64,000 bases of DNA, from contig PKWL01000011.1 in NCBI GenBank assembly GCA_003133225.1, forward strand, positions 1 to 64,000, written 5' to 3'. Shown one piece after another: positions 14,699-39,760 of the stretch (within the stretch, counting starts at the first letter, position 1; each line of letters opens with the position of its first letter). This DNA comes from Janthinobacterium sp. (GTDB lineage: Bacteria; Pseudomonadota; Gammaproteobacteria; Burkholderiales; Burkholderiaceae_D). A model generated the notes under the pieces. It made no database searches. It saw only the letters and a list, made by a program, of their open reading frames with translations, and had not been told where the DNA came from. The translations under genes and the position numbers were made by a program.

Positions 14699-14712
14699 GT
14701 TCTACCGCCATA

Positions 14713-14862
14713 TTCTCGTTTCCGGTTGATGCACCCTTGGCGGCGCCATTCGCGGATTTGTACGAAATAACCTTCGAATCGTTGCCGGTTGCTTGCCTAG
14801 GAATTCCCGGGCAGGCACGGCAGGCAAAAATGGTGCATGAACCGACGCACCTGCATTTCTGA
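14713..14862 (+). pseudogene. Third-generation remnant of the SFPI-family gene
   Basis: Translation from 14713 starts FSFPVDAPLAAPFADLY, aligned to FSFPIDIGELDALG of the gene at 6200. It continues for 50 codons without a start codon and with no further similarity I can see. It lies directly downstream of the TfoX gene stop. Only the central motif is recognisable, so the call is moderate. Confidence 0.5.
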
Positions 14863-16267: not shown

Positions 16268-16432
16268 GTGCATTCATTGTTGCCAACAAATTCTTATAAT
16301 GTCTTAATTTCATTACCTAATAGCGCAATAGTTGCGTCAATTTTCGCATCTGCCGCTATTCCTGGTTTTGTACATTCGCTCATTTTTTACCCTAAGTTGC
16401 GACCGCGTTTCGTTCGCGCTCATCCGCCTTAG
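16268..16432 (+). CDS. 54-residue protein inside a duplicated segment
   Basis: A GTG start at 16268 with AGGAG 6 bases upstream opens a 54-codon frame (MHSLLPTNSYNVLISLPNSA and onward, ending FVRAHPP). Its last 37 codons align with a second copy at 19750-19863 at the protein level (VASIF/VASIY, HSLI/HSFT, KLRPRF/KLRPHF, PP at the end). That conservation suggests coding. The second copy has lost its start. Function unknown; mildly hydrophobic middle, basic end. Confidence 0.5.
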   Translation: MHSLLPTNSYNVLISLPNSAIVASIFASAAIPGFVHSLIFYPKLRPRFVRAHPP

Positions 16433-16500
16433 TTAGTTTTAAATTGATTTTCACGTCCGGCATTCCAAGTGCCGTTGGAATCGTGTCGCCAAAAATTAGC
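16310..16500 (+). repeat. Direct repeat C, copy 1
   Basis: About 190 bases (from the middle of the 54-codon gene through GCCGTTGGAATCGTGTCGCC to the leader of the next gene) recur at 19748-19940 with about 65-70 percent identity by eye. The repeat defines the left edge of a segmental duplication. Confidence 0.75.
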
Positions 16501-17866: not shown

Positions 17867-17910
17867 ATATAAATTATTGACCTATACCGAGTAGCTGGCC
17901 GAATCTTCGG
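17867..17910 (+). promoter_or_regulatory. Shared promoter-like element and leader hairpin, copy 1
   Basis: ATATAAAT (17867-17874), 7 bases, then CTATACC (17882-17888). Ten bases on, CCGAA and TTCGG form a hairpin (17899-17910). The same layout with different hairpin bases precedes the genes at 18659 and 20160. If TATACC is the -10 box, transcription would start close to the hairpin, placing it at the 5' end of the message. Confidence 0.65.
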
Positions 17911-17941
17911 TTGGCGCTCATTTCCACCCAAAGGATATTTT

Positions 17942-18466
17942 ATGCAAAACACTGAACTGAATACAGTCGCGACCACCATCGATAAATTTTCTGACATCGC
18001 TCAGGAACTCCCTTTTGAGAGCGAACAGGCGTGGACCCTCTCGTCAGACTACATGGCAAGCTATCTTCGCCAACATGCGGACAACGGAGCCGGTTTCGGT
18101 GCTGAGGAGGTTTCGCTCTTTGCATCTGGCCGACTTGATTGGTTGCTGCGAGAAACGGGTCCGAGCCTCTGCGGGTTGTTCAGTGAGGGAGACATCATTG
18201 CCCTATTGGACTGCTACCAGGGCTCCATGTTCTTTCCGGACCAAATGAACAGTATCGCATCCGACCTCTGCGACCACCTGGGCGTCGAACTCGAGAATTA
18301 TCAGGGCAGCAATATTGCCTTGCTCGTCGGGACACTGCTCGACTTGAGCCCGGTGCAACGCGTCACGCTGGTCGATGCGTTGGAGCAGACCTGGCATCGC
18401 GGTATGAGGATGGAGAGCAAATCGCCCAGAGAATTTTTCGCGACTCTCGGAATTGATTTGAGCTAA
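17942..18466 (+). CDS. Tandem paralogue a, 174 residues, unknown family
   Basis: This gene and the one at 18659 encode 174-residue proteins that are roughly half identical. Shared blocks are HADNG, LFSEGDI.AL.DCY.G, F.P.QMN.IASDLCDHLG and ALEQ.W.RGM....SP..FFATLGIDL at the end. The protein is soluble, acidic and probably all-helical in the C-terminal half. Its first codons (MQNTELNT) match those of the unrelated gene at 20160. AAGGA lies 7 bases before the ATG. It is driven by the shared leader element and followed by a structured 3' hairpin, both of which are duplicated with the gene. Confidence 0.75.
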   Translation: MQNTELNTVATTIDKFSDIAQELPFESEQAWTLSSDYMASYLRQHADNGAGFGAEEVSLFASGRLDWLLRETGPSLCGLFSEGDIIALLDCYQGSMFFPDQMNSIASDLCDHLGVELENYQGSNIALLVGTLLDLSPVQRVTLVDALEQTWHRGMRMESKSPREFFATLGIDLS

Positions 18467-18477
18467 TTCAGTTTGTT

Positions 18478-18507
18478 CCGTGCGAGTGGTTCGCTTCCCT
18501 TGCACGG
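18478..18507 (+). terminator. 3' hairpin of paralogue a
   Basis: CCGTGC (18478-18483) pairs with GCACGG (18502-18507), enclosing a second small stem. The matching hairpin after paralogue b keeps its stem although its bases differ. Confidence 0.5.
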
Positions 18508-18584
18508 CATAGCGAGTCATAAAACTGACGATGTCCAAATGCCGTGGGGCATCTCGGCGTACGGGAATAAAATTTTTTCGATGA

Positions 18585-18633
18585 ATATAAATCTTTGAGC
18601 TACACCCTGTATCTCCTCGGATTTCCGATGAGA
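18585..18633 (+). promoter_or_regulatory. Shared promoter-like element and leader hairpin, copy 2
   Basis: ATATAAAT (18585-18592), 7 bases, CTACACC (18600-18606), then a hairpin built from TCGGA and TCCGA with an outer TCTC/GAGA extension (18612-18633). Confidence 0.65.
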
Positions 18634-18658
18634 ACATATTTTAAACAGAAAGAATCTT

Positions 18659-19183
18659 ATGCAAACTACTGAAAAACCTATCGCAATCACATTCATTGAC
18701 GGATTGCCTGTTATTACTGGCATCCTTCCCATGCAAAGCCAGCAAGCGTTGACATTTTCGCATGATTACACGGCTCGATACATGCTCGAACATGCGGACA
18801 ACGGCAGCGGCCTGAGCTGGCATAACGCGGCGTCTCTTGCTGCCGCACGATACGAGTGGGTGCTTTTGGAAACTCGGAAGAGCCTGAATAACCTCTTTAG
18901 CGAGGGCGACATATCCGCCTTAAATGATTGCTACCCAGGCGCCGTTTTCTACCCGCACCAGATGAACAGGATTGCATCTGACCTTTGCGACCATTTGGGC
19001 ATCGACGTCGATGCGTACGAGACTTCGGATATGGCCCCGCTCATTGACACTTTGCGTGGTCTGGATGCTGCTCAGTGCATGACATTGGCTGACGCGTTGG
19101 AACAGGCGTGGTATCGCGGCATGAAGCAGGAGAACCTGTCGCCAAAGGCATTTTTTGCCACGCTCGGCATTGATTTAACCTGA
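18659..19183 (+). CDS. Tandem paralogue b, 174 residues, unknown family
   Basis: This is the second member of the tandem pair. It starts MQTTEKPIAITFIDG and is then collinear with paralogue a to the last residue. Conserved positions cluster in HADNG, NLFSEGDI, IASDLCDHLG and LADALEQAW, whereas the N-terminal 40 residues and residues 80-90 have diverged. The conserved acidic and aromatic residues could form a binding site, but no function can be named. The ribosome binding site is weaker (AGAAAG). The leader and 3' hairpins are kept. Confidence 0.75.
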   Translation: MQTTEKPIAITFIDGLPVITGILPMQSQQALTFSHDYTARYMLEHADNGSGLSWHNAASLAAARYEWVLLETRKSLNNLFSEGDISALNDCYPGAVFYPHQMNRIASDLCDHLGIDVDAYETSDMAPLIDTLRGLDAAQCMTLADALEQAWYRGMKQENLSPKAFFATLGIDLT

Positions 19184-19192
19184 TTTGGCTTT

Positions 19193-19228
19193 GTGCCGTG
19201 TGAGCTTGTTCGTTCGCTCATACGGCAC
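19193..19228 (+). terminator. 3' hairpin of paralogue b
   Basis: GTGCCGTGTGAG (19193-19204) pairs with CTCATACGGCAC (19217-19228), 11 Watson-Crick pairs plus one G-U. It is at the position equivalent to the hairpin after paralogue a, with different bases. Confidence 0.55.
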
Positions 19229-19423
19229 AGCGCGTCATACTGCTGACGATGTCCTCGTGCAGGTCGGCACTCCCGAATCAGATAGGGCCATGGTGGCCAT
19301 GATTCAGATTCCATGGGCGCTGTATTCATAAAAATTGACGAAATGACGCTTCTGATTTGCAATAGTCCCCTGCGTTGTAGGTCATATACACACGCCACTT
19401 TGTCCACTAAATCAAAGAAAATT

Positions 19424-19741
19424 ATGGAAAACAAAAATATTTTATCGCTTTCTACAAATGCCGATGGCGTCGTCGTAGGAAACCTTTACCGGAGTGGAGA
19501 GCATTTGCTATCGATGACGCAGCCGGCAGCCATCGCGGCAGCGATATTTGCAATGGGGGAATGCAAAATCGCTCTCTTGGCGGAGTCGAAACTAGTAGAA
19601 TTTCCGTTCCCAATTTCAGCGGGTAATTTGGGCACACTGCTACCGTTTCTCGATAACAAAGACCAAGTTGATTTCATGGTTGAGTTTGCCAATTCTTCGT
19701 GGCTCGATTTCTTGAGTCCGCTGCCGCACTTGGTAACGTAG
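19424..19741 (+). CDS. Second intact SFPI-family protein, 105 residues
   Basis: Starting at the ATG at 19424 (MENKNILSLSTNADGVVVGN) the product aligns with the gene at 6200 over almost its whole length: LSL..NA.G.VVGNLYR.GE.LL, AIAAAIFAM, and EFPFPISAGNLGTL. It lacks the unique C-terminal 40 residues of that protein, so the conserved ~100 residues are probably the functional domain. No family is known. It lies between the tandem paralogues and the decayed copy of repeat C. Confidence 0.65.
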   Translation: MENKNILSLSTNADGVVVGNLYRSGEHLLSMTQPAAIAAAIFAMGECKIALLAESKLVEFPFPISAGNLGTLLPFLDNKDQVDFMVEFANSSWLDFLSPLPHLVT

Positions 19742-19747
19742 GAGTAT

Positions 19748-19940
19748 CCAATGGCGTATTAGTTGCGTCAATTTACGCGGCTATCGCTTTTCGTGGCCCT
19801 CTACATTCGTTCACTATTATTCTCAAGTTACGGCCACATTTTCGTCGTGTTCGTCCACCCTAGCTAGTTCTTAATTTATTTTTCAATCGGAGTTTCATAT
19901 GCCGTTGGATTAGTGTCGCCAAAATTTAGTAATTTTAGCT
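19748..19940 (+). repeat. Direct repeat C, copy 2
   Basis: This is the second copy of the 16310-16500 segment. Shared blocks include TTAGTTGCGTCAATTT / ATAGTTGCGTCAATTT and GTGTCGCCAAAA. Confidence 0.75.
19750..19863 (+). pseudogene. 5'-truncated copy of the 54-residue gene
   Basis: The frame beginning NGVLVASIYAAIAF and ending RRVRPP aligns with codons 18-54 of the gene at 16268. There is no start codon; upstream it abuts the SFPI gene stop. A nearby AGGAG-ATG opens only three codons in another frame. Confidence 0.6.
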
Positions 19941-19960
19941 AAAAAACAGAGGAAAGAAAC

Positions 19961-19990
19961 GTGAGGAATTGTCAACCCAAGGGTAGCTAA
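19961..19990 (+). pseudogene. Nine-codon remnant of a gene start
   Basis: A strong AGGAAAG ribosome binding site precedes a GTG that opens a 9-codon frame (VRNCQPKGS). It occupies the position of the 16586 gene relative to repeat C and shows faint similarity to MRANQ. It is probably the stump of a second copy of that gene. Confidence 0.35.
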
Positions 19991-20085
19991 CATTCATGTT
20001 TGACGAGGGAGTAAGGCAGGGCGGCCGTTTATGTTGACTCAGCTAAGACCGATGAGGGGCACCTCAGAGGCTAATTTTTGGTGAA

Positions 20086-20131
20086 ATATAAATTGCGGGG
20101 CTATACCAAATGGTTCGTCGAATCCTCGACG
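20086..20131 (+). promoter_or_regulatory. Shared promoter-like element and leader hairpin, copy 3
   Basis: ATATAAAT (20086-20093), 7 bases, CTATACC (20101-20107), then CGTCGA and TCGACG form a hairpin with an ATCC loop (20116-20131). Confidence 0.65.
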
Positions 20132-20159
20132 GAGATTTGTCACTACAACAGGAAATAAT

Positions 20160-20732
20160 ATGCAAAACGCTGAACTGAACACGTTAGATACGAAGCAATA
20201 TAGAACAGCATGTGGCGGCACAATTAATATTCCACAGCAAACCCAACATCATTTGAACGCTCATCCTAACGTTGTCGAACATTTGCATGCTGCTATCGGA
20301 AAAATACATTTGCCTGTTGTTCGGAAAAAAATAGAGGAGGAGATTGACACGGGACGACCCATTGGAAGGTCTGGCGTAGTAAAAACCGCGCCAATTCAAA
20401 TTGGAGACCAGGCACTATTTTCTCTTCGGGCGAATCGTAAGCTGCCGTCGCGCGTTGCCAATATTGGTGAATTTGGAGAGGAAACGTCAAGGATTGTAGT
20501 GGTCGCCCGACCAAACCTTGTTGAGAATCAGTATGACCTCATCACAGCGTGGATTGGAACGCTGGCAAGAAAGGAACCTTGGGACGGAAGTATCGCCGAG
20601 CGGAGGGAATTCCAAGAATGCTTGAGGTTTTGGAGTTCTACGGCGTTGGTATATGACCCTACCGTCATGGGACCTGTGTTTGAAAGTAGCTGGAAGGACA
20701 TCCTTACTCAAGGCAAATCTAGATTTCTATGA
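20160..20732 (+). CDS. Possible BECR-fold ribonuclease-like protein
   Basis: The 190-residue protein begins with the same codons as paralogue a (MQNAELNT) but is otherwise unrelated to it. Its C-terminal half reads RIVVVARPNLVENQYDLITA, then KEPWD, then ECLRFWSSTALVYD. This order of a strand pair, LITA, a K/R-E-P-W-D motif and FW..(H/T)AL resembles, from memory, the C-terminal RNase-type domains of the barnase-EndoU-ColicinE5-RelE class found in polymorphic toxins. The N-terminal half contains HLNAHPNVVEHLHAAIGKI, a possible helix. There is no obvious immunity gene. AGGAA precedes the ATG. The fold call is inference and needs a profile search. Confidence 0.5.
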   Translation: MQNAELNTLDTKQYRTACGGTINIPQQTQHHLNAHPNVVEHLHAAIGKIHLPVVRKKIEEEIDTGRPIGRSGVVKTAPIQIGDQALFSLRANRKLPSRVANIGEFGEETSRIVVVARPNLVENQYDLITAWIGTLARKEPWDGSIAERREFQECLRFWSSTALVYDPTVMGPVFESSWKDILTQGKSRFL

Positions 20733-20794
20733 GTTTGGCGAACTAATCGGGGGTAATGCTACCGGCCGACTTTGGTCGAAGGTGGACTAGGGAG

Positions 20795-20822
20795 CAGCCT
20801 CGTTTCGCGCGAGACGAGGCTG
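20795..20822 (+). terminator. Hairpin after the 20160 gene
   Basis: CAGCCTCGT (20795-20803) pairs with ACGAGGCTG (20814-20822). There is no long T tract. Confidence 0.5.
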
Positions 20823-20931
20823 TATTGGCCTCCAACTGTCGTAGGTCGCACACCTCGGGTTCCTATAGTGTAAGCCAATTATCATCGTCACTTTAACCAC
20901 TTCACTTTAACTGTCTAACAAGGAATCACAT

Positions 20932-21537
20932 ATGTCCGCAATCGAACTCATCTTATGCGCTTCAGACTCTATTTCACAGCCTGAGCTTCACTTACCACCT
21001 GAAAATGGAGCGTTGCAATCTCCTTCGAGTGCGCCACCTACATCGCTTTATGTCATGTCTTTACAAAATGAAATTGATGAACAAAATCGGTTGTTGAAAG
21101 AATTTCCTTCAGATGCAGAAGGGACCATCGGTACCCGATATCGCTTCCGCGCCGAATGCCAGAGAGATGCCGACCTATTTCTTCACGCAATACTTTTTTT
21201 TATCGAACCATCATGGAAAATGTCACCAATTTCATATTACCCAGACATTGATGTCACGTTTTCCATAAGCCGAGAAATTTCCCCCCGCGACCTGTTATGG
21301 ATTGCGTGTTCTATTGTGGACGGCCATGTCCTTGTCCAGACGCTAGAAAAAGAGGGCGCTTACACAGGTGAACGAGATTACGAACGAGATATCGACGTCC
21401 ACGCGTCGGAATTTAAGCCTTCGGCTGCAGTACTTGCAGACATGAAAAAAGGAGCGTCCCTCTACGTAAAAAGGCTCAAATTTCTCCTTACCGACGCCAA
21501 GGAATTTGCAGCAAATCTAAAAGTAATCACAAACTAA
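20932..21537 (+). CDS. Paralogue pair member II (FRAEC family), 201 residues
   Basis: Residues 65-165 align with the N-terminal part of the protein at 17159 (FRAEC, DIDVTFSI, VDGHV, YTGERD). It has a distinct 60-residue polar N-terminal extension and a different C-terminus. The ATG has AAGGA 7 bases upstream. Two copies of TCACTTTAAC (20888-20897 and 20902-20911) precede it and may be regulatory. The gene at 21552 follows after 14 bases, so the two probably form an operon. Confidence 0.65.
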   Translation: MSAIELILCASDSISQPELHLPPENGALQSPSSAPPTSLYVMSLQNEIDEQNRLLKEFPSDAEGTIGTRYRFRAECQRDADLFLHAILFFIEPSWKMSPISYYPDIDVTFSISREISPRDLLWIACSIVDGHVLVQTLEKEGAYTGERDYERDIDVHASEFKPSAAVLADMKKGASLYVKRLKFLLTDAKEFAANLKVITN

Positions 21538-21551
21538 CCCGGAGGAATAAT

Positions 21552-21887
21552 ATGCGTACGACAAGTATTTGTAACGCAGCCATTGGCTCTATTGCTTTTC
21601 AGCAGCAACCCGTTGACAGTGAATTCATCGAACGATGGATTGACAGAGCAATCGAATTATTCGATGCCGACAAACGTACCGCCAGTGCGAGCTGGGAGCC
21701 GAAAAGGTCTGAAATCGTGGTCTCAATTGAGGATGAAGACTACGCCGAAGACGGCATGGACGAAGGTGATGATATGGACGGGGGTGACGATGTCGATGAA
21801 TGCCACTATAGGGGAGAATTTGGGTTCGTTGCAATCGCGCTCGAATGTATGGACCGGGCATTCGAGCAACTCTGCAATGAATCCTAA
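21552..21887 (+). CDS. Strongly acidic 111-residue protein
   Basis: The ATG follows a GGAGG ribosome binding site. The product has a helical N-terminus (EFIERWIDRAIELFDADK), then a dense acidic stretch (EDEDYAEDGMDEGDDMDGG) and a hydrophobic-acidic C-terminus ending EQLCNES. The net charge is very negative. Acidic proteins of this size on plasmids include DNA-mimic anti-restriction proteins, but no specific match was recognised, so that role is speculative. It probably shares a transcript with the upstream gene. Confidence 0.65.
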   Translation: MRTTSICNAAIGSIAFQQQPVDSEFIERWIDRAIELFDADKRTASASWEPKRSEIVVSIEDEDYAEDGMDEGDDMDGGDDVDECHYRGEFGFVAIALECMDRAFEQLCNES

Positions 21888-21967
21888 AATTATTTGATGG
21901 CAACAGGACCACGCCGGCGTTTGAAACAAGGGTTACCGGGATGTAGTGAGGAATTCGCCATCGAGAT

Positions 21968-21991
21968 GCAACGAGCGGGACGGCTCGTTGC
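21968..21991 (+). terminator. Hairpin between 21.9 and 22.0 kb
   Basis: GCAACGAGC (21968-21976) pairs with GCTCGTTGC (21983-21991). A second hairpin, CCGGTC/GACCGG, lies just before the next gene at about 22022-22038. Confidence 0.5.
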
Positions 21992-22067
21992 GTAGCAAGT
22001 TGGAAACAATACATTGATGGGCCGGTCACTAAGACCGGTCTAACGCAACAACAAACTGGAGCATCAA

Positions 22068-22301
22068 ATGAGCATAATTGCACCCCCACGCCGCGCGACC
22101 CTCAAATCCGTCAACGAATACTTGGCAGCAACCCGCGCCGGGTTTTACATAGAGTTCGACTGCTACAACAGTCACCAAGTCTCAAAGTTTTATGAAGAAG
22201 ATGGCACCCGGTTTTCAGCGGGCCAGACACGGCACGAAACTGCGCGTCAATTTCTTGACGAATATCTGCGCTACCCAGACCGGCATTCTCTTGACTATTA
22301 A
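22068..22301 (+). CDS. Small hypothetical protein, 77 residues
   Basis: The ATG has GGAG 6 bases upstream and a leader hairpin (CCGGTC, ACTAA, GACCGG) about 30 bases before it. The product (MSIIAPPRRATLKSVNEYLA, then TRHETARQFLDEYLRYPD) is polar with two helical stretches. No family is known. It sits alone between the acidic-protein operon and the DUF4116-like gene. Confidence 0.55.
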   Translation: MSIIAPPRRATLKSVNEYLAATRAGFYIEFDCYNSHQVSKFYEEDGTRFSAGQTRHETARQFLDEYLRYPDRHSLDY

Positions 22302-22438
22302 CCTTGGCCAAGACTCTCCTATCCTCCTGTGTTGGTCAACTTGAATTTGCAGAGTATGCCGGGCACAATGTTGACTCGCATCAAAATCGGGTCGGGGGAA
22401 CAATCCTTGCCTTGGTCGACACGCTCGAAGATTAATCA

Positions 22439-22460
22439 ATATAAATACCGAAGCTATACC
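22439..22460 (+). promoter_or_regulatory. Shared promoter-like element, copy 4
   Basis: ATATAAAT (22439-22446), 7 bases, CTATACC (22454-22460), 77 bases before the gene at 22538. The leader is longer here and its hairpin (TGCC/GGCA at 22486-22497) is weaker and further downstream than in the other three copies. Confidence 0.6.
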
Positions 22461-22537: not shown

Positions 22538-23551
22538 ATGCCTGCAACACCAGCTATGGCTATCGCCAACAACGTACCCCACAAAGAAGATTTACTCGAC
22601 CCTCGAATTTTCGCCGTGCTTGATGAAATAAGCGATGATGAAACGTACAAGCGCATCCTATACAACATACCGTTTGGTCTCGACACGCAAGATGTCCTGC
22701 TTATCGCTAGCATGTTGAATTTTAAATATCCACCAACGAACCCGCAGGACGTCGCCGAATGTCTCGGCGACGGGAAATTCACGGTGATTTTGAACGCGCT
22801 CACGCACGAGCTCGAATGGGAATCGGATTCAACCCGGTACTACGCAGCCGTGGAATGGTTTGAGGGCGATAACGCGTTTGGATACACGCCACCAGACAGG
22901 ATACTTGTGATGGCCATGACGTTCGACGGTACTCATATTCGGCACGTGGAAAATCCCACTGAGGAAATGAAACTCGCTGCCGTGCGACGTACAAGCTCTG
23001 CAATTGAATACATCGAGAATCCAAGTGATGCGGTGAGACAAGCGGCAGCTACTACAGCTATTGCTGAACGTGCCCAAGCCCGCTCCGCGTTTTTAAGTAA
23101 GTATGGAACGGGCGTCGCGCAAGATAAGGCGTTGGACCAGAACGCGGCACCTTTCCCGGTAACTCAGGATTCTTCGGCCAATGCCGTTCAAAGCGAACCG
23201 ACGTACTTTGTTCAAGGCATCGGCTCACTGAACTATTTTTCCGGCATATTGTTGTCTTTGGTAATTAAGCTGAACCACTGCGCCGGAAACGACGAACGGC
23301 ATTCTGGTTTCATGGCTGTGACAGAGATGGATGGGGGTCTTGTACTCTCGTTTGGCGTCATTCAGCAGTTATTCCTTATGCGGGACATGTTCTTGGAAGC
23401 GCTTGAGATGGAAGGCCTTAATGGCGGAGTGGGGTTGGATTTCGACGATTTGGCCGTCATTGCATACCCAAGTGCCGTCGGGCCCGGATTCGTTACGTGG
23501 GGGCCAAATGCTGCTGTTGCGCAAATAGGAAAGAGCCGGTCGCTGCATTAA
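22538..23551 (+). CDS. Protein with DUF4116-like repeats, 337 residues
   Basis: AGGAG lies 7 bases before the ATG. Residues 134-170 contain two consecutive helical units, HVENPTEEMKLAAVRR and YIENPSDAVRQAAATT, that match the I..I.NPSEE.QLAAV repeat of DUF4116, usually found in many copies in large proteins. The N-terminal 120 residues and the C-terminal 130 residues (with a hydrophobic FSGILLSLVIKLNHCAG segment) are not recognised. It is driven by the fourth copy of the shared promoter-like element and closes the cassette array. Function unknown. Confidence 0.7.
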   Translation: MPATPAMAIANNVPHKEDLLDPRIFAVLDEISDDETYKRILYNIPFGLDTQDVLLIASMLNFKYPPTNPQDVAECLGDGKFTVILNALTHELEWESDSTRYYAAVEWFEGDNAFGYTPPDRILVMAMTFDGTHIRHVENPTEEMKLAAVRRTSSAIEYIENPSDAVRQAAATTAIAERAQARSAFLSKYGTGVAQDKALDQNAAPFPVTQDSSANAVQSEPTYFVQGIGSLNYFSGILLSLVIKLNHCAGNDERHSGFMAVTEMDGGLVLSFGVIQQLFLMRDMFLEALEMEGLNGGVGLDFDDLAVIAYPSAVGPGFVTWGPNAAVAQIGKSRSLH

Positions 23552-23760: not shown

Positions 23761-24451
23761 AGATGCCCCGCAAGCGACGGCGGTCGAGGAGGTTGTTCGA
23801 GAGTACCTGCCGCAGTAGGCTAAGGACTGAACTGCCGGCGGGGGGGGAGGCGTTACTTTTGGAATAGGGCCGAGTTCGGCGCGGATTGCCTGGCGAGATG
23901 GACGACTGAACTCAATGCGACCCGACCCGAACCGACCCATCTCAAGCGCTGCGCCGTTCGAACCCGCCTGCTACCTCAGTTACCTCCGTTACCGAAAGTT
24001 TGGGATACATATAGGCCTTGCAGAGTCGCGCCGATAGCCGGATTATTCACTGGTCCGCCGCGGTTCTGGTGTCAAACCGTTGCCCACGGCTATAAGCGAA
24101 GTCGCCCAGGACCATGAATTTGGGCCGGTATCCACAGGCACGTCCACGTCGACTGCAGGCAACTTCCCCGACGTCAGTAGCGCGTCGAGGTTGCGCGCCG
24201 GCTGGACGGGGCTACGCTCAGCCGCCTGCAATTCCTAAAAGAGCCGGCCGCTGTAATGACGCGCCTGATGTCGCAGATACGTGCATCCTAGCGTGTCCTG
24301 GGCTCGACTGAGCCGGGCCGCTTCTCCGGGCAAAACAGGTAATTTCCAAGCCAAACAGCATCAAATTCAAATTATGCATTCCTCTAAGGTATGCTCTCTG
24401 AAAGCAAGAAGTTTGATTTATCGGTTACCAAGGGTCCGCGAAGGAAAAGAC
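23761..24451. other. Stretch without a confident gene before the STAND operon
   Basis: The stretch is GC-rich with several short open frames but no ribosome binding sites. The last 150 bases turn AT-rich and must contain the promoter of the STAND gene. The ATGs at 24281 and 24374 are in frame with it but poorly placed. Confidence 0.4.
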
Positions 24452-27400
24452 GTGTCAAAGAGCGAAGATGTGCGATTCACCCGTGATGGCGACCAGTTCC
24501 ATTATCTATGGGCAGCAAGGCGTTGCCTGAAACTGCTGGCGCCGGCTACTACCTTGACCTCAATTACCATTGAAGGCGCTTCGCAAGCAGAGCTCCCCAT
24601 TGGTGAAGGGATTGCAGCCGGCGAGGAGGTAATTGACGTAGGGGAGTATTACGGTAGCACGTCTCTCGCGGAGGCAACACGTGTGCGCTATGTTCAACTG
24701 AAGCACTCAACGGTTAACTCGACTGAAGAGTGGACAATGAGCGGACTCTCGGTCACATTGGTGGGCTTCGCCAAACGCTTTCAAGAACTTGTTGTGAAGC
24801 TCGGCCTCGTCGCGACAGCTGAGAAACTTGCCTTTGTTTTCGCGACAAATCGCCCTATCAGCATAGACGTCTATAACGCCATCGATGACACACGTGACGG
24901 ACGTACGCCAAGGAATGCACAGGCGTCGCGAGGATTAGCAAGTTACACTGGTCTAGCCGGCAGCGAGCTGGAATCCTTTTGTTCTCTGCTGTCTCTCGAG
25001 TCAGAGCACGATGGTTTTTTGGCCCAACGGAAAGCACTGGAAAGCGACTTACGAGGCTATCTACCCGACGGCGATAGCGAGGCGTTTTTGGAGGTCAAGG
25101 AACTGGTAACTCGCAAAGCGACCTCCGAGTTTTCAGACAACCCATCTATCACAAAGCTCGATATCCTGAGGGCACTCGGAACGGACGAAGACTATTTGTT
25201 CCCCGCTCAAAACCAGATATCGTTGCCCGATTTAGTCATTCCGCGAGAGGGTGAGGGACCGCTGGTTCAGGAGATTATTAATGCTGGAACTTCCCCTGTT
25301 ATCGTTCATTCGGAGGGCGGGGTCGGGAAGTCGGTCTTTGCTTCGCGCATCGGTGGTCACCTTCCGCCTGGTTCAATTTCAGTGGTCTACGATTGCTTCG
25401 GAAATGGGGAGTATCGTGCGCCAAGTCATCCTCGACACGGTGCACGCCAAGCGCTTGTGCAAATCGCGAATGAACTAGCCTCCGGTACGCATTGCCGCCC
25501 GATTGTTCCATCAGGACGGGCCGACGATACCGCATATTTCAGAGCATTTTCCACTCGTATTGGACAGGCGGTCAATAGTATTCAACAGTTAGAAAAGACC
25601 GCATTGCTCTGCATCGTCATTGATGCAGCAGACAATGCCGAGATGGCTGCGACAGAATCGGGCGACACAGCCTCGTTTGCCCGAAAATTGATTCGGGAGT
25701 CCTTCCCGGTTGGAGTTCGCCTTGTTATGCTATGCCGTACTCATCGCCGCCACTTACTAAAACCTCCATCATCGACTATCGAGTTGGCGCTACCTACATT
25801 TAGCTGGGATGAGACTGCTTCGAAGTTGCGAGGTGTCTTCCCAGATGCGAGTAATCAGGACGTAAACGAATTTCACCGTCTGAGTTCGGAAAATCCGCGT
25901 GTGCAAGCGACCGCCCTGGCGCAATCAAGCGAGCTTCACGAAATGCTCCAAAATCTGGGCCCTGAGCCCAAGACGGTAGATGACATGATTGGTCGCCTAC
26001 TCGAACAAGCAGTGAGACGAGCAAAAGAGGAAGTACCGAACGAACTACATCCAAAATTCGACCGCATCTGCACGGCGCTGGCAGTGCTGCGCCCAATGAT
26101 TCCGTTATCCGTTGTCGCGTCGCTAGTCCAGATGGACCAGACCAATCTGCGCAGCTTCTTGGCTGATTTGGGACAGTCTGTCCTCATCAAAGGAGCGCTG
26201 CTGCAATTTCGCGACGAGCCTACGGAAACATGGTTTCAGGAACACTTCAAGCCCGATGCTGAAGCGTTCAGTGAGTTCATAGAGGTACTAAGGCCGCAGG
26301 CTCGTAAGAGCGCTTATGTTGCAGCGACATTACCTCACCTGATGCTTAAGGCCGGGCAAATGGATGAGCTGATAAAAATTGCACTTAATTCGAGCGACTT
26401 GCCCGACTCGAATACCCTTGAAAGCCGAGATGTCGAAGCACAGCGGCTGCATTTTGCACTTAGGGCCAGCCTTCGAAGCCACCGCGACTTGGACGCCGCT
26501 AAACTCGCACTTGCGGCCGCAACCTTGGCAGCGGCAGAAGACCGGCAGTGGAAAACTTTGCAGGCCAACACCGATTTGGCGGGCCGCTTCCTCGAGCCCG
26601 AACAGATACTTGGTGTGGTTACGAGAAAGGAATTCACAGCCGGATGGAGGGGCTCACACCATGTGTACGACGCGAGCATGCTTTCATTCACCCCAGGATT
26701 CCATGGCGATGCTCAGAGTCACATCCGAATGGCTGGAGAGTGGCTTAGAAACATGCGGACGTTGCCCGCTGACCAAAGGGAGAAGGAGCACTTAGAAGCA
26801 AGCGACATTGCAGCCCTAGTCATAGCCAACCTGAATATCTACGGCCCGGCAAAAGCCGCCTCAACAATTCGGGGATGCACTACATCGAAATTCCGGCATA
26901 ACGTCGCGAGTCTGGTGGCCAGGCGCCTGACTGATGGGGCAAAACTCTCTGAGCTGGATGCGATATCCATTGCCGGAGCCTGCGATACGGCCCTTGTCGC
27001 GGCAATAGTTCTTGAAGCTGCGCGAGTTGGTCATTTGCTGCCGAAGGAAGGAGTACTTAGAGCGTGGACAAACGTAATTAGAATTGCGGCACAGGACGAA
27101 GTGCGCCATCATGACATGGAAGCACATGTCCCTTCGTTGCTCACCGCGTTTGCATGGACCGCAGTCAAACTCAATATTTGTACACATGAATCCGCAGCTG
27201 CGGTGATGACTCGCCATCTCGGCGCCGATAGGCTAAGGTCACTGGGATATCAGCACGACCGCAGTGGTCCGACATTAGTAAAAGCATACCTCCTGAAAGC
27301 CACGCTCTCCGGTCATACATCAGCATTGATTGAATTGGCACATCCTGATTGGAGTGAGGCCTTGACAAAAGGTGGACACCAGGCTGACCAGAGAGAGATT

Positions 27401-30400
27401 CGAGAGTTTCGAGCAAGGGCGGGGGCACTTATGCCTTGGTATCAGCTTTGGGCCGACTTGGTATGTGGTGAGGTGTCGGACGATGAGGTCAAGGTCCGGT
27501 TACATCAAGCAGAGAAAGCGTCAAGCAATGCATTGCAAATCAACTACTGGGACACGCATCAACTGAAAAACGACATCGCGATTGCCCACACGGAGATACT
27601 CATCGAGCTCGGCGCGAACGCGGCGGCTCACGTCGAGTCATTGCGGGAGCGACTGTCAAAAAATATCTATTTCTCGAACACCCTCATCGCTATTGTTTGG
27701 AGTGCTGCAAGAAGCTCATCGCTTACGCGTTTTGCTCTCGATGTTTCCAATAAGGTAGCTGTACAACTCGATGCAGCACGTGAGCAGGCGGAGTCACGCG
27801 CGGACTCGTGGGTGGCGCTAGCAAGGGCATTGATGTCATGCCACGAGAGCGAATCCAAGTATTTCTTCCAAAAGTCGATTGAAGTCGCGGCAAAGATTGG
27901 AGATGAAAATCTATGGCGATGGGGTGCAGTACTTCATCTCGCCGATGCCGCATCTTCGCCAAATCAAGCAGACTCCCAACTTGCTTATCGAGTTGCGCGT
28001 TCGGCCGAGCTCACATACGATTTCGTCTATCGCGATAAACATTTTGATTGGCAAGGGACGGTTGAAGCAATATCCAATCTCTGTCCGTCATCTGCGTTTG
28101 CGATATTCAGCCGATGGCGTGACCGAGGTTTCGGTTCTTGCCAGCGCTTGTTAGCAAAATTGGTGGAGCATCTAGCTTCGCAAAAGCGTCTAGACCCGGC
28201 GCTAACTGCTGCGCTCTACGGGTTCCAAGCCAAATGGTCTGCATCGGATATATTTTCGCTAGTGATGGATAATTCAACAGAGCAGAATGAACGTCAACAG
28301 CGCGCGGATTTCCTGTTTCAATATATCCAGCTAGACCAAGATAGCGAAAGTACGTGGAGAGAAATCCAGGAAACGGCCAACAAATTCCAGGTCATGATGC
28401 CGAATATTGAGTCATATGTTCTGCATGCCAAACATCGAAGTACGATTGCGGAAGGCCTCAAAGACAGAAATAGGCACTCTTCCACGCCATCCGAACCGAT
28501 GGATTGGGAGAGCGTGTTCGTCGGGTTAGAAATCGCATCGTTATCATCGCTAACGGAGGCAAACCAACGATACAAGCGAACGCGAACGTACGACGCAGGC
28601 ACCAATTTCTACGGACAAGCAGCGCTCCGTGTTCCTTTAGGGAAGGAAGCTAATTTCCTGCAATCATTGCAAGAATTTCCGGAATTCGAGTTATATGAAC
28701 TACGGTATCTCTTAGAAGGACTTCCCGTCGCCTGGCGTCAGCAATTTTCGACGATGTCTGAAGTGCAGTTGCTGGTAAAGGCGCTAGTCGCGCGCCACAG
28801 TCTGGGTATTTCCGTGTCTCGCTATTATCAAACTTTGCCCCTGGACATGGTAGAACGCGAGACGATGCTCCCAATGGCAGACCTGATTTTTGTGGCATTG
28901 GAAGCCACTGCAGAGACTCCTTTTCAACTGAGTGCGGAGAGTCTTTTCCAACTGGTCGGTCTGCTCGCGAGACGACTGAGTAAGAAAGAGGCAAGCGAGG
29001 CGTTAGACTTCGAGTTGACGAGACTAGAAGGCTCAATGGAGGACAGCCTTGGTGACGGACCAATGACCGATGCTTTGCTTCCGCCAGCGGATATCAATTC
29101 AGCAGTAGCCGGTTATGTTTGGGGAGCACTTGCTGCACCCGAAGCGGAGTATCGGTGGCAGGCTGCTCACGTCGTGCGTGCGATGTGTCAGCTTGGTTGC
29201 GGAGCGGTTATCGATTACCTGGTGCTGTGGCTACGTACCACTCCGCCGCCAAAGTTTGTCGACCAAAACCTTGTTCACTACAAACTGCATGCGAACTTGT
29301 GGCTGTTGATTGGATTTGCCCGTGCTGCGCTTAACTATCCGGACATCCTGAAAAAACATATTCAATCTTTTGTGGAGCTCACAGTCGACGGCGAGCCACA
29401 CGTGCTAATTCGGGGCTTCGCAGCTCAAGCCGCCATTGCAATCGCGGCTTCGAGCCCGACAGAGCTGAGCTCAGAAACGTTGGCGCGGCTTCGCTCCATC
29501 AACGAGCCTATTTTGAGCCCGGATGCACCAAACCGCAAAAAGCGCTTGGAAGGCCATCGTAGACAAGGCGGCTCGGCAGAAGAATTGAAGCTGCATTTTG
29601 GGATAGATATGCCATCCTATTGGTTTGAGCCGCTTGCGACACGTTTCGGGCTCTCGACTCGTGAAATTTGTGCCCGTATCCAAGATGTCATACTAAATCG
29701 TTGGATGATATCTACTCTACAATGGGACGATGACCAACGCTATCGCCGAAACTATTATTCGCATGAGGTTACTGGGCACTCGCATGGCTCCTATCCGAAA
29801 TCGGAGGACCTGCATTTTTACCTAAGCTTTCATTCGATGATGCTTGTAGCTGGTCAACTGCTTACAACGGTACCGATGGTGCCGCCGGAAGATGACGGCG
29901 ACGATTACGACACATTCCAATATTGGCTGCGCGGATATGAGCTGACGCGACTGGATGGTCGATGGCTCGCTGACCGGCGCGACCCGGAACCGCTTGACTA
30001 CTCGGACTGGTCTAGCGAAAGCGATGATAAAACATGGCGCTGGTGCGTAACTAAAGAAGACTTCTCAACGATTCTGTTTTCCGAAACCGGGATGGTTGCT
30101 GTATCAGGCCGCTGGCTTCAGAAGAATGGCTCGAGACGTCAAGAGGTGTCAGTTGGAAGCGCGCTTGTCTCCACTGAATCTGCGCGCGCGCTGCTTGTAG
30201 CATGTCAAACTGCGTCTGACCTCAATTGGAACGCTCCGCTTCCTTGCGCCGGCGACGACGATGATGTACCGATAGCTGGCTTCGAACTTATGGGGTGGGT
30301 ACTGAGGAAGGACAGAAACGACGGGCTTGACCTACATGACCCATGGTGCGCTGATATTCACTTCCCAGCGCCGGCGCCTTCTGAGCTAGCATGCCAATTA

Positions 30401-30724
30401 CTTGGACTCTTTGCCGATGAAGATAATCGAAATTGGTATCAGGGTGAAGACAACGAATTGGCATTGAAATCGCGAACCTGGGGGAGTCCGCCCACCGATG
30501 ACAGAACAGACCAGGAATCTAACCACGGACTGCTGCTGGAGGCATCTTTAAGCGTTCTCAATGAGCTGGTTTCTAAGACCGGTAAGAGCTTAATCTTCAA
30601 GGTAAGCATAGCTCGCAACTTGGCTTCCGCCTACCAAAAAGATGAAGACCAATCAGTCAAGTACCCAGCGCCATATGTCCTATATTTTCTCTTAAACGAT
30701 GATGAAAAATTCACCTCCCTTTGA
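24452..30724 (+). CDS. Giant nuclease-STAND ATPase, Avs-like anti-phage protein
   Basis: I start at the GTG at 24452, which has AAGGA 7 bases upstream and gives 2090 residues. The N-terminal 200 residues look like a Cap4/DUF4297-type PD-(D/E)XK nuclease: GDQFHYLW (13-20), an early Glu (about 41), VIDVGE with Asp 62, and the QLK motif (82-84). Then follows a STAND-type ATPase with Walker A GGVGKS (289-294) and Walker B IVIDAAD (388-394). About 1200 residues of helical repeats come next, followed by a distinct C-terminal module of about 350 residues rich in Trp and acidic residues. In Avs proteins such repeats recognise a phage protein, the ATPase oligomerises and the nuclease destroys DNA. The 3' end overlaps the next gene by 26 bases. 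Its length and C-terminal module are unusual, so the subtype is left open. Confidence 0.85.
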   Translation: MSKSEDVRFTRDGDQFHYLWAARRCLKLLAPATTLTSITIEGASQAELPIGEGIAAGEEVIDVGEYYGSTSLAEATRVRYVQLKHSTVNSTEEWTMSGLSVTLVGFAKRFQELVVKLGLVATAEKLAFVFATNRPISIDVYNAIDDTRDGRTPRNAQASRGLASYTGLAGSELESFCSLLSLESEHDGFLAQRKALESDLRGYLPDGDSEAFLEVKELVTRKATSEFSDNPSITKLDILRALGTDEDYLFPAQNQISLPDLVIPREGEGPLVQEIINAGTSPVIVHSEGGVGKSVFASRIGGHLPPGSISVVYDCFGNGEYRAPSHPRHGARQALVQIANELASGTHCRPIVPSGRADDTAYFRAFSTRIGQAVNSIQQLEKTALLCIVIDAADNAEMAATESGDTASFARKLIRESFPVGVRLVMLCRTHRRHLLKPPSSTIELALPTFSWDETASKLRGVFPDASNQDVNEFHRLSSENPRVQATALAQSSELHEMLQNLGPEPKTVDDMIGRLLEQAVRRAKEEVPNELHPKFDRICTALAVLRPMIPLSVVASLVQMDQTNLRSFLADLGQSVLIKGALLQFRDEPTETWFQEHFKPDAEAFSEFIEVLRPQARKSAYVAATLPHLMLKAGQMDELIKIALNSSDLPDSNTLESRDVEAQRLHFALRASLRSHRDLDAAKLALAAATLAAAEDRQWKTLQANTDLAGRFLEPEQILGVVTRKEFTAGWRGSHHVYDASMLSFTPGFHGDAQSHIRMAGEWLRNMRTLPADQREKEHLEASDIAALVIANLNIYGPAKAASTIRGCTTSKFRHNVASLVARRLTDGAKLSELDAISIAGACDTALVAAIVLEAARVGHLLPKEGVLRAWTNVIRIAAQDEVRHHDMEAHVPSLLTAFAWTAVKLNICTHESAAAVMTRHLGADRLRSLGYQHDRSGPTLVKAYLLKATLSGHTSALIELAHPDWSEALTKGGHQADQREIREFRARAGALMPWYQLWADLVCGEVSDDEVKVRLHQAEKASSNALQINYWDTHQLKNDIAIAHTEILIELGANAAAHVESLRERLSKNIYFSNTLIAIVWSAARSSSLTRFALDVSNKVAVQLDAAREQAESRADSWVALARALMSCHESESKYFFQKSIEVAAKIGDENLWRWGAVLHLADAASSPNQADSQLAYRVARSAELTYDFVYRDKHFDWQGTVEAISNLCPSSAFAIFSRWRDRGFGSCQRLLAKLVEHLASQKRLDPALTAALYGFQAKWSASDIFSLVMDNSTEQNERQQRADFLFQYIQLDQDSESTWREIQETANKFQVMMPNIESYVLHAKHRSTIAEGLKDRNRHSSTPSEPMDWESVFVGLEIASLSSLTEANQRYKRTRTYDAGTNFYGQAALRVPLGKEANFLQSLQEFPEFELYELRYLLEGLPVAWRQQFSTMSEVQLLVKALVARHSLGISVSRYYQTLPLDMVERETMLPMADLIFVALEATAETPFQLSAESLFQLVGLLARRLSKKEASEALDFELTRLEGSMEDSLGDGPMTDALLPPADINSAVAGYVWGALAAPEAEYRWQAAHVVRAMCQLGCGAVIDYLVLWLRTTPPPKFVDQNLVHYKLHANLWLLIGFARAALNYPDILKKHIQSFVELTVDGEPHVLIRGFAAQAAIAIAASSPTELSSETLARLRSINEPILSPDAPNRKKRLEGHRRQGGSAEELKLHFGIDMPSYWFEPLATRFGLSTREICARIQDVILNRWMISTLQWDDDQRYRRNYYSHEVTGHSHGSYPKSEDLHFYLSFHSMMLVAGQLLTTVPMVPPEDDGDDYDTFQYWLRGYELTRLDGRWLADRRDPEPLDYSDWSSESDDKTWRWCVTKEDFSTILFSETGMVAVSGRWLQKNGSRRQEVSVGSALVSTESARALLVACQTASDLNWNAPLPCAGDDDDVPIAGFELMGWVLRKDRNDGLDLHDPWCADIHFPAPAPSELACQLLGLFADEDNRNWYQGEDNELALKSRTWGSPPTDDRTDQESNHGLLLEASLSVLNELVSKTGKSLIFKVSIARNLASAYQKDEDQSVKYPAPYVLYFLLNDDEKFTSL

Positions 30725-33068: not shown

Positions 33069-33281
33069 CTACTTGCTTTCTTCCGTTACTGGACGGGACT
33101 CGACATAGCTGGCGAGCCACGCCTCGACGTCGACGCGGCGCCAGCGCAGCAGTCTGGTTCCAGGGATATGCAGTCGGGGCGGTACAGCCAGACGATTGCG
33201 CTTGATGTCTTTTTTAATTGTTTCCGGGCTGCGTCCGAGCAGGGCGGCCAAGTCGGCTAGGTCCAAAATTGAATTTTCCAT
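33069..33281 (-). CDS. AlpA/excisionase-like DNA-binding protein
   Basis: Starting at the ATG at 33281, which has GGAG 5 bases upstream, the gene encodes 70 residues with a winged-helix MerR/AlpA-type fold: ILDLADLAALLGRSPETIKK (helix-turn-helix), then RLHIPGTRLLRWRRVDVEAW (wing and last helix). Such proteins act as excisionases or activators for integrated elements. No integrase gene is near. A perfect 8-base palindrome (33355-33371) upstream is a candidate operator. It is probably the leftover control region of a mobile element. Confidence 0.75.
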   Translation of the reverse strand: MENSILDLADLAALLGRSPETIKKDIKRNRLAVPPRLHIPGTRLLRWRRVDVEAWLASYVESRPVTEESK

Positions 33282-33354: not shown

Positions 33355-33371
33355 ATGTCATCAGATGACAT
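33355..33371. promoter_or_regulatory. Palindromic candidate operator of the AlpA-like gene
   Basis: ATGTCATC (33355-33362) and GATGACAT (33364-33371) form a perfect dyad around one A, about 75 bases upstream of the AlpA-like start. Confidence 0.5.
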
Positions 33372-34737
33372 ACGGTGTAGCGGATGGAATTTATATTCCT
33401 GCGCGCACTCACGCAGGCTGAAAATTTCGGCGAGGCGTGTTGGGAAGGGCGGTGGGAACTGCCGGCATTAACGAATCGGGCGATAAAAAGGTGGAAGTAG
33501 TAGGGGCGCGATGAACGTTCGACACGCTACCGTAGAGTGACCTTTGGGGCTATCGCAGCAAGAACCTGGGCGGAAGCACAGTGGGGCGCGGTGTCGCTGT
33601 CTGTTATCTCGAGATTGCATTTCGCCGTCGGTAGTATTCTCCGGAGAATATTTGAAGACAATTTAAAGCCAAAAATCATGTGGCTATTGGGCGACCCGAT
33701 GGCTTGGCGGGGGCAATCCGGGCTAAATTGCGCGTGTTCCCCCCGTCAACTGTTACCTGTTACCTGTTGTTACCCCGAAACCGCTCACAGAAAAGGCGAT
33801 GCCGAAATGCCTCACACCAGTCGGGTCGCGAAAGAGGGTTTGGAGCAGAGGCGCTTGGCTAAGGGGGTAGTGGGCCGGGCTCTCTGTGCAGTCATCGGGG
33901 TGGCTGTGGTCACCCATGCATGCGGACTGCCAGTAGGTCGTTGGCCAACGGTTCGAAGTGGTATTTTCTCGCGAGGGGCGGGCGGAGATGGCTCGGCGGC
34001 GTCAAAAGTTGGAAGTAGTGCTATGGAGCGCTGGTTGACCGCAGTGGACGAGCCGCCCAACTAGGCAGCGGCAGCAGGCCCTTTAACTGATTTGTGCAAC
34101 AGGTTGTTGCACAAATGGCTCTTGGGCGGTGTAGCAGTGTGCGGCTGAACTAATGATAAATTGTCTAATAAGTAATTGTCCAACACTTTGTTGGACAATT
34201 GGTGCTGGGAAACCTACATCATGGTTTGCCTGGTCTCAGTCGCCCGCCGACGTTCATGCTCTCGCAGCTTTATACCGCCGTCGCGCTAAATCGGCAAACC
34301 TCTCCGTCGTGACGTTTGTCGACAAAACAAACTGCTTACTATTTACGCTTGCGTGCCGCGCTCCCGCAGGTGTTGTTGTGCTTTTCGTGCCAAACTCCCT
34401 ATTGCCGAATCGGCCCTCCAGCGCGGCAGCCCGATAGAGCAGTGCGCCGAAATGTCAAACACGCAACATGCGTCCAAGAAACTTGGCAGCAAACTTCGCT
34501 GAAACCGCCGCAACTACACCGAACAGCCGAATTTATGACCCTGTTTTTGGTCGCAATGACGCATATCGGTGCCCGTTATCACCCGTTACTGCTTTTTTTT
34601 TCCAGTTCAGCTTGCTCAACCCGCCACTGTTCAACCTCCTGCAACCGCCAACGAAACAACTTGGCGCCCACGCCGGTACTCGTGATAATTTTCCGTCCAG
34701 TGATATATTGCAATTCCTCATGAGCTAAGGTTGAACC
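33372..34737. other. Gene-poor, palindrome-rich stretch
   Basis: No confident gene is present in these 1.4 kb. Several frames are open but lack initiation signals. Features are a perfect 16-base palindrome TATTCTCCGGAGAATA (33635-33650), a triplet of GTTACC repeats near 33747, and the two covarying palindromes at 34090-34200. A minus-strand stretch ending at 34579 reads LAHEELQYITGRKI and KLFRWRLQEVEQWRVE, reminiscent of a DUF4224-like or excisionase fragment, but has no credible start. Confidence 0.5.
34090..34200. repeat. Two related palindromes with compensatory changes
   Basis: ATTTGTGCAACA (34090-34101) mirrors 34105-34116 around a 3-base loop, and AATTGTCCAACA (34174-34185) mirrors 34189-34200, also around 3 bases. 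Where the arms differ, both arms of each palindrome differ in step. They are 84 bases apart. Confidence 0.75.
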
Positions 34738-36599: not shown

Positions 36600-36678
36600 G
36601 TTAGAGTGCAATTTGCAAAATATGCGGCGGCGCAGCATAATTCATTTGTCTCCTCCAACTCCTCCAAGAATTGGATTT

Positions 36679-36708
36679 AGCCCGCTTTTATCAGCGGGCT
36701 CTTTTTTG
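36679..36708 (+). terminator. Terminator after the 36294 gene
   Basis: AGCCCGC (36679-36685) pairs with GCGGGCT (36694-36700), followed by CTTTTTT. Confidence 0.8.
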
Positions 36709-36959: not shown

Positions 36960-37823
36960 TCAGTCCGTCTTCAAGATGCCCCGGCATCCCGGAAATTTCG
37001 AGCATCCCCAAAACTCATTGCCAGCCGCGCCGACCTTTTTTGAGCTCCGCAGAACCATGCGGGACCCGCACTTTGGACAGAAGTGAGTCATTACCGTTGC
37101 TGCAGCCTCAGCCTGATTTGGCTTCACCGCTGGCGTCAGCCCCGAGGTTACTTTCTTTCTGGTCTCGGCCACCATTTTAAGCAACTCCGCCGTGTGCACT
37201 AGCTTGATGGCGCGCCCCTCGGCGAAGCTGCGGGCATCGCTGGTGAAATCTCCGGACGCAACAACGAATCCGCCGACGGCACCTTCGGCCGCCATTACTC
37301 CGTAGAGCTCCCGGACAGTAGCGACGCCCACTTTCAGCGACTTCCATTGCTTGCATTGAACGAGGTATTTGTCGGCCCCCATCCGCAGCTCGACGTCAAC
37401 ACCACCATCCGGCCCGGCTCCACCTCGCTCGATGACCTGGAAACCCTTTCGCCGGAAAACTTCTGCGGTTAGACCCTCGAATTCACTCCAGGATATCTTC
37501 TCCAACGCCCCACGGTGGGGTGTTGCGGCCACTCTGTCGTGAAGTTCGGATTGCTTACGCCGATTGAATACCGACACCAAGGCACCTAAGGCTAATGCAA
37601 GCGGCGCCAGGTACTGCATGACACTTCCAACAGTTCGAATTAGACCGCCGGTCACTACGGCTCCGATGTGACCGGCCCCAGTCTGGAATGGCGTCGGCGG
37701 CATGGCGGCGAAGTGATGGAAACCAAAGTAAGCGACGCCAGCGAGAATTAGGGAAACCTGCCACGGCAGCTTGGAAGCAATATGGGCGATGTCTTCAAAC
37801 AGGGACAATTTTTTCTTGGCCAT
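36960..37823 (-). CDS. Membrane-anchored Mrr-type restriction endonuclease
   Basis: The 287-residue protein has two N-terminal hydrophobic segments (about 22-40 and 64-86). An Mrr-family PD-(D/E)XK nuclease domain (about 105-225) follows, with WSEFEGLTAEVFRRKGF, DGGVDVE (Asp 143) and QCKQW (Gln 156, Lys 158). A C-terminal topoisomerase-type zinc ribbon is built from Cys 249, 252, 274 and 280. All catalytic and zinc positions are intact. This architecture is common in proteobacteria and is thought to cut modified or foreign DNA, here near the membrane. The ribosome binding site is weak. It is the first gene of a defence block bounded by direct repeats D. Confidence 0.9.
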   Translation of the reverse strand: MAKKKLSLFEDIAHIASKLPWQVSLILAGVAYFGFHHFAAMPPTPFQTGAGHIGAVVTGGLIRTVGSVMQYLAPLALALGALVSVFNRRKQSELHDRVAATPHRGALEKISWSEFEGLTAEVFRRKGFQVIERGGAGPDGGVDVELRMGADKYLVQCKQWKSLKVGVATVRELYGVMAAEGAVGGFVVASGDFTSDARSFAEGRAIKLVHTAELLKMVAETRKKVTSGLTPAVKPNQAEAAATVMTHFCPKCGSRMVLRSSKKVGAAGNEFWGCSKFPGCRGILKTD

Positions 37824-39596: not shown

Positions 39597-39760
39597 CAAG
39601 AATCCTTAGTATCTATATGCGTGCTGAGCAGCACAGTGCGGCTCAGTATCTGACGCCAAAACATGCCAACAAAATAGCTTGATGTCAATAGGTTAGCTGA
39701 ACTACTCTATGAGCCTCTCGGCGGCTCGGAAAACGACAGAATTTTGTTGTGATGGAGAGG

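Follow-up and report, generated by a model that had tools for sequence, protein, structure and literature searches.

A two-box element at the locus

The stretch of DNA analyzed here (the window) comprises bases 1-64000 of contig C86 (98,963 bases; GenBank PKWL01000011.1) of a Janthinobacterium sp. genome, and it carries a two-box sequence element that is repeated in front of several genes. In its strict form, ATATAAAT-N7-CTAYACC, the element occurs in four exact copies, all on the plus strand and with 0 mismatches, namely site 1 (17867..17888, ATATAAAT-N7-CTATACC), site 2 (18585..18606), site 3 (20086..20107) and site 4 (22439..22460). The rest of the assembly (5.74 Mb, 158 contigs) contains no further copies of the strict pattern with the 7-base spacer. 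The first-pass annotation of this DNA had already listed these four CTAYACC copies, and all of its coordinates were correct and exact. It had also placed the first three 52-53 bases before a start codon, in agreement with our measurements from CTAYACC to ATG of 53, 52 and 52 bases (77 at site 4). The genes that follow, all on the plus strand, are gene 1 (17942..18466, 174 amino acids, aa), its paralogue gene 2 (18659..19183, 174 aa, 53% identity), gene 3 (20160..20732, 190 aa, phrog_23674) and gene 4 (22538..23551, 337 aa). Because the contig carries a TrfA-like replication gene along with a gene of the ParA type, a plasmid is a fair reading. A megablast search of PLSDB with window positions 1-25000 gave no match.

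Relaxing the pattern to ATATAAAT-N6-9-CTAYAC (spacer of 6-9 bases, final C dropped) revealed that a set of four is too small. Five matches were found in the window, against a mean of 0.01 and a maximum of 1 in 100 dinucleotide shuffles. The fifth copy, site 5 (33375..33396, minus strand, ATATAAAT-TCCATCCG-CTACAC, spacer 8), precedes a gene for a 70-aa HTH_17 (AlpA-like) protein (33069..33281, minus strand; its Pfam HTH_17 match, with E 4.7e-7, passes the curated cut-off), which thus lies on the same replicon as sites 1-4 and is our proposed regulator. A sixth copy of the same genome is located on contig C151 at 7239, 34 bases 5' of a 361-aa open reading frame (ORF); an integrase-like ORF, recognized by eye, lies roughly 2 kb away. 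A second, partial HTH_17 match was also observed in the window at 14705-14803 on the minus strand (E 1e-5), perhaps a remnant.

Association with HTH_17 regulator genes

The looser pattern was also found in three genomes of the same genus (G016, G018 and G021) and in one of another genus (G079); 35 of the 40 genus genomes had no match. A reversed control pattern matched in 29 of the 40 genus genomes, so that a single match proves nothing and matches were accepted only with context. On this basis 10 of the 29 listed places were retained, i.e., the six of the present genome (G000), one each in G016, G018 and G021, and position 281171 of G079. The place on contig C7 of G016 and the remaining listed places were left out, none of several inspected being convincing. 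The pattern matches listed from viral contigs and genome contigs, one at each listed locus, were taken as chance.

The regulator homologues of G016, G018 and G079, which were met through the element, carry it upstream just as the 70-aa gene of the window does. These four regulators, referred to here as seeds, were met through the element itself and were therefore excluded in separate counts. Protein scans of 215 family genomes and the 40 genus genomes yielded 33 HTH_17 loci, 30 of which could be scored. A locus counted when both boxes stood no more than 140 bases upstream, with at most three mismatches and at most one of them in box 2. This was so at 15 of the 30 loci, spread over five genera. 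When the seeds are set aside the count is 11 of 26 versus 1 of 106 distinct control ORFs taken from these same loci (Fisher 2e-8), and the single control match is itself the G021 site described further below. In addition, all five genus genomes with the looser pattern fall within the 10 that have an HTH_17 match (n = 40, P 4e-4), an association that is partly circular, as one of the sites is a regulator's own.

With the seeds included, the element also follows the relationships among the regulators. On a tree of 24 such regulators, three element changes were counted (mean of 7.9 after shuffling, 0 of 500 shuffles as low), and in a subfamily marked by ...RSD at the same place of the protein the element is missing in all six rows. 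For regulators with ...ETIKKD...RN (KKD-type), box 1 has the form ATATAAAn at 6 of 6 loci, a count that includes the four seeds, and it starts otherwise in 8 of 8 of the other element-bearing regulators. Without seeds, a box 1 starting with AT was found for 2 of 2 KKD-type regulators versus 0 of 8 others (P 0.02). These forms of box 1 hint that it has changed together with the regulator.

Two genomes hold two site classes in tandem. In both G021 (L260, 694-71, minus strand) and G016 (L292, 9324-8797, minus strand), an HTH_17 gene preceded by a CGATAAAT-type site of its own stands directly upstream of a ATATAAAT-type site, after which comes the next gene. The accepted site of G021 is letter for letter the 22-mer of site 5 and stands 30 bases 5' of a homologue of window ORFs 6200 and 19424, which, unlike the G021 gene, have no element upstream. 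As a separate observation, an HTH_17-like homologue lies 5' of a RepA-type helicase gene on plasmid pPNAP03 of Polaromonas naphthalenivorans (L344, 3800-4153), where ATATAAAC is present upstream and CTAYAC was not found at the right distance.

Another possible role for an HTH_17 site is in recombination. The AlpA family is reported to include excisionases (PMC11773190; PMC10803314), and the element might accordingly be the binding site of an excisionase-type recombination directionality factor and no promoter at all. We consider this very unlikely, given that at 21 sites CTAYAC ends 30-96 bases 5' of a start codon and points in the direction of the gene, and that several different genes are concerned.

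Site shape, leader hairpins and gene context

An alignment of 23 sites, which includes the doubtful one of G017 and other weak sites, was used to describe the element. In box 2 the CTA is invariant and is followed by Y, by A and, in 20 of 23 sites, by C; the base before CTAYA is G in 17 sites, C in 4, T in 1 and A in 1. ATAA is conserved in box 1, and none of the positions examined upstream of it reached 0.3 bit. The sites were chosen for their likeness to both boxes, so this conservation is partly by construction. The first-pass annotation had noticed that no -35 box is conserved, and this holds for both candidate -10 boxes: the best matches to the sigma70 -35 sequence TTGACA at 15-19 bases were 2-5 of 6 at 10 sites, similar to 3,000 random positions. 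Alongside a putative non-standard sigma factor it suggested an activator in place of a -35 box, and the latter fits both this absence and the link to HTH_17 genes.

The missing -35 box would also be compatible with control by a host sigma factor. In such a scheme box 2 would serve as the -10 sequence of promoters of the sigmaS type (or sigma70), the genes would share growth-phase control, and box 1 would be an AT-rich helper at about -28 to -21. (G)CTAYAC corresponds to the first seven positions of the sigmaS -10 consensus KCTAYRCTTAA as given in the cited account, which also describes sigmaS promoters as having no -35 consensus (PMC5650638), and box 2 is the more constant box in our alignment. 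However, the TTAA of that consensus does not follow: the base after box 2 is C in 11 sites, G in 9, A in 3 and T in 0 of 23, and a second box stands at a nearly fixed distance. Moreover, CTAYAC-type boxes before ORFs of the contig show little excess beyond the element itself (GCTAYAC 5 versus 1.31 expected, 3 of the 5 being the element), and the link to HTH_17 genes would be left unexplained. A sigmaS-type promoter is thus an unlikely explanation, and the leaders described next bear on it as well.

Folding from CTAYAC onward gave leader hairpins at 17889..17919 (site 1, GAGU-A-GCUGGCCGA-AUCU-UCGGUUGGC-GCUC), 18607..18637 (site 2) and 20108..20138 (site 3), all on the plus strand and beginning about 2 bases or less from CTAYACC. 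They share one architecture, in which a lower stem and a 5' bulge of 1-2 nucleotides lead to an upper stem spanning 8-9 columns and capped by an AUYY loop. The leader upstream of the gene-3 homologue of G018 (L293; 58% identity) has the same upper stem with the loop CUCC. When these four leaders are aligned, 92.3% of the cells are paired and both sides have changed in 8 of 13 pairs. Covariation as high was seen in 0 of 500 shuffles, and sliding the partners destroys the pairing, part of this last contrast being expected from a structure derived from the same four sequences. Hence the claim of the first-pass annotation that stems at sites 1-3 keep pairing while their bases change is borne out by compensatory changes. 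The element can also occur without this hairpin: no hairpin of that type was found on folding site 4 (fold z -1.01, -0.78 and -1.14 in three runs). After site 5, folding indicates a different hairpin (33355..33371, minus strand, AUGUCAU-CUG-AUGACAU).

Structure in the leaders is a more general tendency. The mean fold z of 21 leaders was -1.55, compared to -0.36 for 76 control stretches of 60 bases, in a comparison where lengths differ, some leaders are closely related, and the sites of G940 and G870 were left out of the 23. The gene 1-3 type of hairpin itself appears to be narrow, since a covariance model of it (R1), run over 295 relatives, scored high only on its four training sequences (62-73 bits, next best 24 bits). 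No leader matched an Rfam family at the gathering score. The only Rfam match of the window is RF02278, a Betaproteobacteria toxic small RNA, at 36647-36707 on the plus strand and above its gathering score.

How much of a hairpin would be transcribed depends on the box that serves as -10. With box 1 in this role, RNA would start near GCUAYACC and include the whole hairpin. With box 2, as the sigmaS scheme would have it, a start 7 bases downstream would leave the upper stem alone in the transcript at sites 1-3 and would cut the C151 hairpin, a further point against that scheme. It is predicted that the leaders are transcribed and give the target mRNAs a structured 5' end, with a role that may be, for example, 5' stability or translational control.

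The same leaders are relevant to the question of shared descent. A 5' module consisting of promoter, leader and first codons could have been duplicated within a plasmid family and hitch-hiked along, without any common regulator. Genes 1 and 2 are neighboring paralogues, and genes 1 and 3 are 85% identical over 33 bases across the start codon (17932-17964 and 20150-20182; first codons MQNxELNT), a peptide with which the gene-3 homologue of G018 does not start. The sites of G016, G029 and G021 share their spacer with site 5 of the window. Other diverged duplications exist in the region as well: about 185 bases recur at 71-81% identity (16314-16499 versus 19745-19929), and the ORF pairs 6200/19424 and 17162/20932 are paralogous, which together suggest that the region has expanded through duplication. 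On the other hand, among sites 1-3 and G018 divergence has reached the spacers and flanks, yet the two boxes remained exact and the stems changed in pairs. The module also precedes a variety of genes, lies on either strand, and recurs on a second contig as well as in other genera. Descent alone is therefore, in our view, a distinctly improbable explanation.

Regarding the genes themselves, genes 1 and 2 are each other's sole relatives. No other was found in PLSDB, in viral contigs, in 39 other genomes of the genus or in 368 other genomes of the class, nor by a peptide scan of genome contigs. Four phage records (E 0.06-0.2) were taken as chance; among the matches, the one in Ep032 falls in a 72-aa mechanical ORF overlapping a 317-aa ORF of the opposite strand, and that in PhiXhv-15 lies almost wholly outside annotated genes. 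Relatives of gene 3 occur in large phages, and the genus search found homologues in G018 and G029; in a sample of 399 genomes of the order, only its own genome carried the gene. Large phages of the Mimasvirus type (CBB, XbC2 and Kaldavass) encode a protein related to it (34-36% over about 140 aa), whose gene sits immediately 3' of a tRNA-Trp gene, and a weaker likeness was seen to a protein of two Pseudomonas phages. The same contig also holds a dense anti-phage cluster (window 24401-30724 and 36960-58272; PADLOC and Pfam matches), comprising a full-length Avs3a (24401-30724), an Mrr-type nuclease (36960-37823), a ThsB-type TIR protein (38565-39599), a type I restriction gene (41966-45343), a type I methylase gene (46537-48075), a Dsr2-like SIR2 protein (49114-53034) and a PDC-S21 protein (57283-58272).

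The phage kinship of gene 3 and the abundance of defense genes could be brought together by assuming that a late promoter of the T4 type has been captured as box 1; the gp55-like sigma factor of an infecting large phage would then fire the genes as a defense or satellite response. The core of box 1, TATAAAT, does resemble the T4 late promoter TATAAATA, and phage CBB, which carries a gene-3 relative, is reported to have a gp55-like sigma factor and, as a late motif, ATAAATA (PMC5259590). Nevertheless, of the four reported sites, site 4 alone has the final A of TATAAATA, the eighth base. A late promoter would account neither for the conserved second box nor for the box-1 variants GAATAACT and AAATAACT, which depart from TATAAATA at regulator genes. 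We thus regard this explanation as highly improbable.

The proposed regulon and known systems

The simplest reading that accounts for regulator and cargo genes alike is that the element is the promoter/operator of an HTH_17 (AlpA-like) clade and has been copied to the cargo genes. The resulting mobile-element regulon would be small, most of its leaders being structured. We favor this reading tentatively and with slightly less than even confidence. The promoter/operator would be bipartite, with box 1 (nATAAnn, ATATAAAT in its full form) separated by 7-8 bases from box 2 ((G)CTAYAC). The HTH_17 protein is predicted to bind this site and, by analogy with AlpA of Gram-negative islands, which acts on its own gene, may activate transcription. 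The site in front of the regulator gene would provide autocontrol, and the copies before other genes would place them under the same control. On the plasmid-like contig of this genome the predicted targets would be the regulator together with genes 1-4, joined by one gene on the other contig, and most leaders would fold soon after box 2 into a structured mRNA 5' end. The first-pass annotation had suggested a co-regulated plasmid set of four genes. The other genomes support the shared signal with structured leaders, from which co-regulation of the genes behind it may be expected; the limitation to four genes and to the plasmid does not stand.

Several observations weigh against this promoter/operator reading. 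Half of the scorable HTH_17 loci (15 of 30) do not score, and one of the 11 that score without seeds (L339) looks like chance. When the seeds are removed, the tree of regulators shows weak clustering of the element (26 rows, 6 changes versus a mean of 8.6, 25 of 500 shuffles as low). Since the search for cargo sites used the exact ATATAAAT pattern, the form of box 1 at these sites is uninformative on the class of regulator. The first-pass annotation had raised the presence of the element at related loci, and here the picture is mixed, since it is present in relatives and missing at some homologous genes. Two gene-3 homologues of G029 lack it, though that genome has the regulator and a near-exact site, and in the family of ORFs 6200/19424 only the G021 gene carries it, i.e., one of the four genes seen. 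The doubtful site of G017 (spacer 6) lies in a genome whose HTH_17 protein belongs to another subfamily, and genes 1 and 2 stand apart through their lack of wider relatives. With respect to the leaders, folding is weak in G021 (+0.39), G933 (+0.30), G973 (+0.32) and the whole leader of G018a (-0.15), and covariation of the regulator-type leaders was not significant (71 of 500 shuffles). Finally, in phage-inducible chromosomal minimalist island (PICMI) satellites, expression of alpA is reported to have left satellite gene expression unchanged (PMC10803314).

A more far-reaching version is conceivable, though doubtful. According to it, the plasmid HTH_17 regulator would command a cross-replicon regulon made up of the plasmid genes beside the large defense cluster and the gene on the other contig. 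The type of regulator and box 1 would have co-diverged across genera, and the structured leaders would add control at the RNA level.

If the promoter/operator reading is true, the binding site of an AlpA-like HTH_17 clade would be predictable from sequence. The cargo genes that are switched on together by mobile elements, including genes with no known relative, could then be compiled from it, and the reading would add another case of one 5' leader structure common to different mobile-element genes.

Among known systems, the integrative and conjugative element ICEclc is similar in that one sequence motif is common to promoters of a mobile element. As described, the motif occurs in 8 of 9 promoters and alpA-bisDC forms one regulatory node (PMC9286271). 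The reported activator BisDC is a different protein, and its 27-bp motif can be likened to our element by description only. Regarding Salmonella genomic island 1 (SGI1) and IncC plasmids, the plasmid master regulator AcaCD is reported to act also on promoters of the chromosomal island (PMC5058578; PMC4605294). The arrangement found here is comparable, in that the plasmid-like contig holds five sites and a sixth lies close to an integrase-like ORF of another contig. AcaCD is a different type of activator from HTH_17, and the action of the plasmid regulator on the other contig is, in our case, a proposal from sequence.

What the phage-inducible chromosomal islands (PICIs) and PICMIs have in common with our system is a small regulator of the AlpA/HTH_17 type whose own promoter is controlled. 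This control is reported as positive autoregulation by AlpA in Gram-negative PICIs (PMC11773190) and is predicted here. Such islands combine an integrase, alpA and a primase at a single integration site; in G018 the HTH_17 gene is followed by a VapE-domain gene. The differences are that here the site also stands before other cargo genes on a plasmid-like contig, that no helper phage is known, and that the contig of the window has replication and partition genes of plasmid type. The exact box words ATATAAAT and CTATAC were not met among the matches listed from the promoter and genomic-island literature, a search that was not exhaustive. The proposed combination of an AlpA-like mobile-element regulon with a bipartite site and structured leaders is unmatched among the systems compared.

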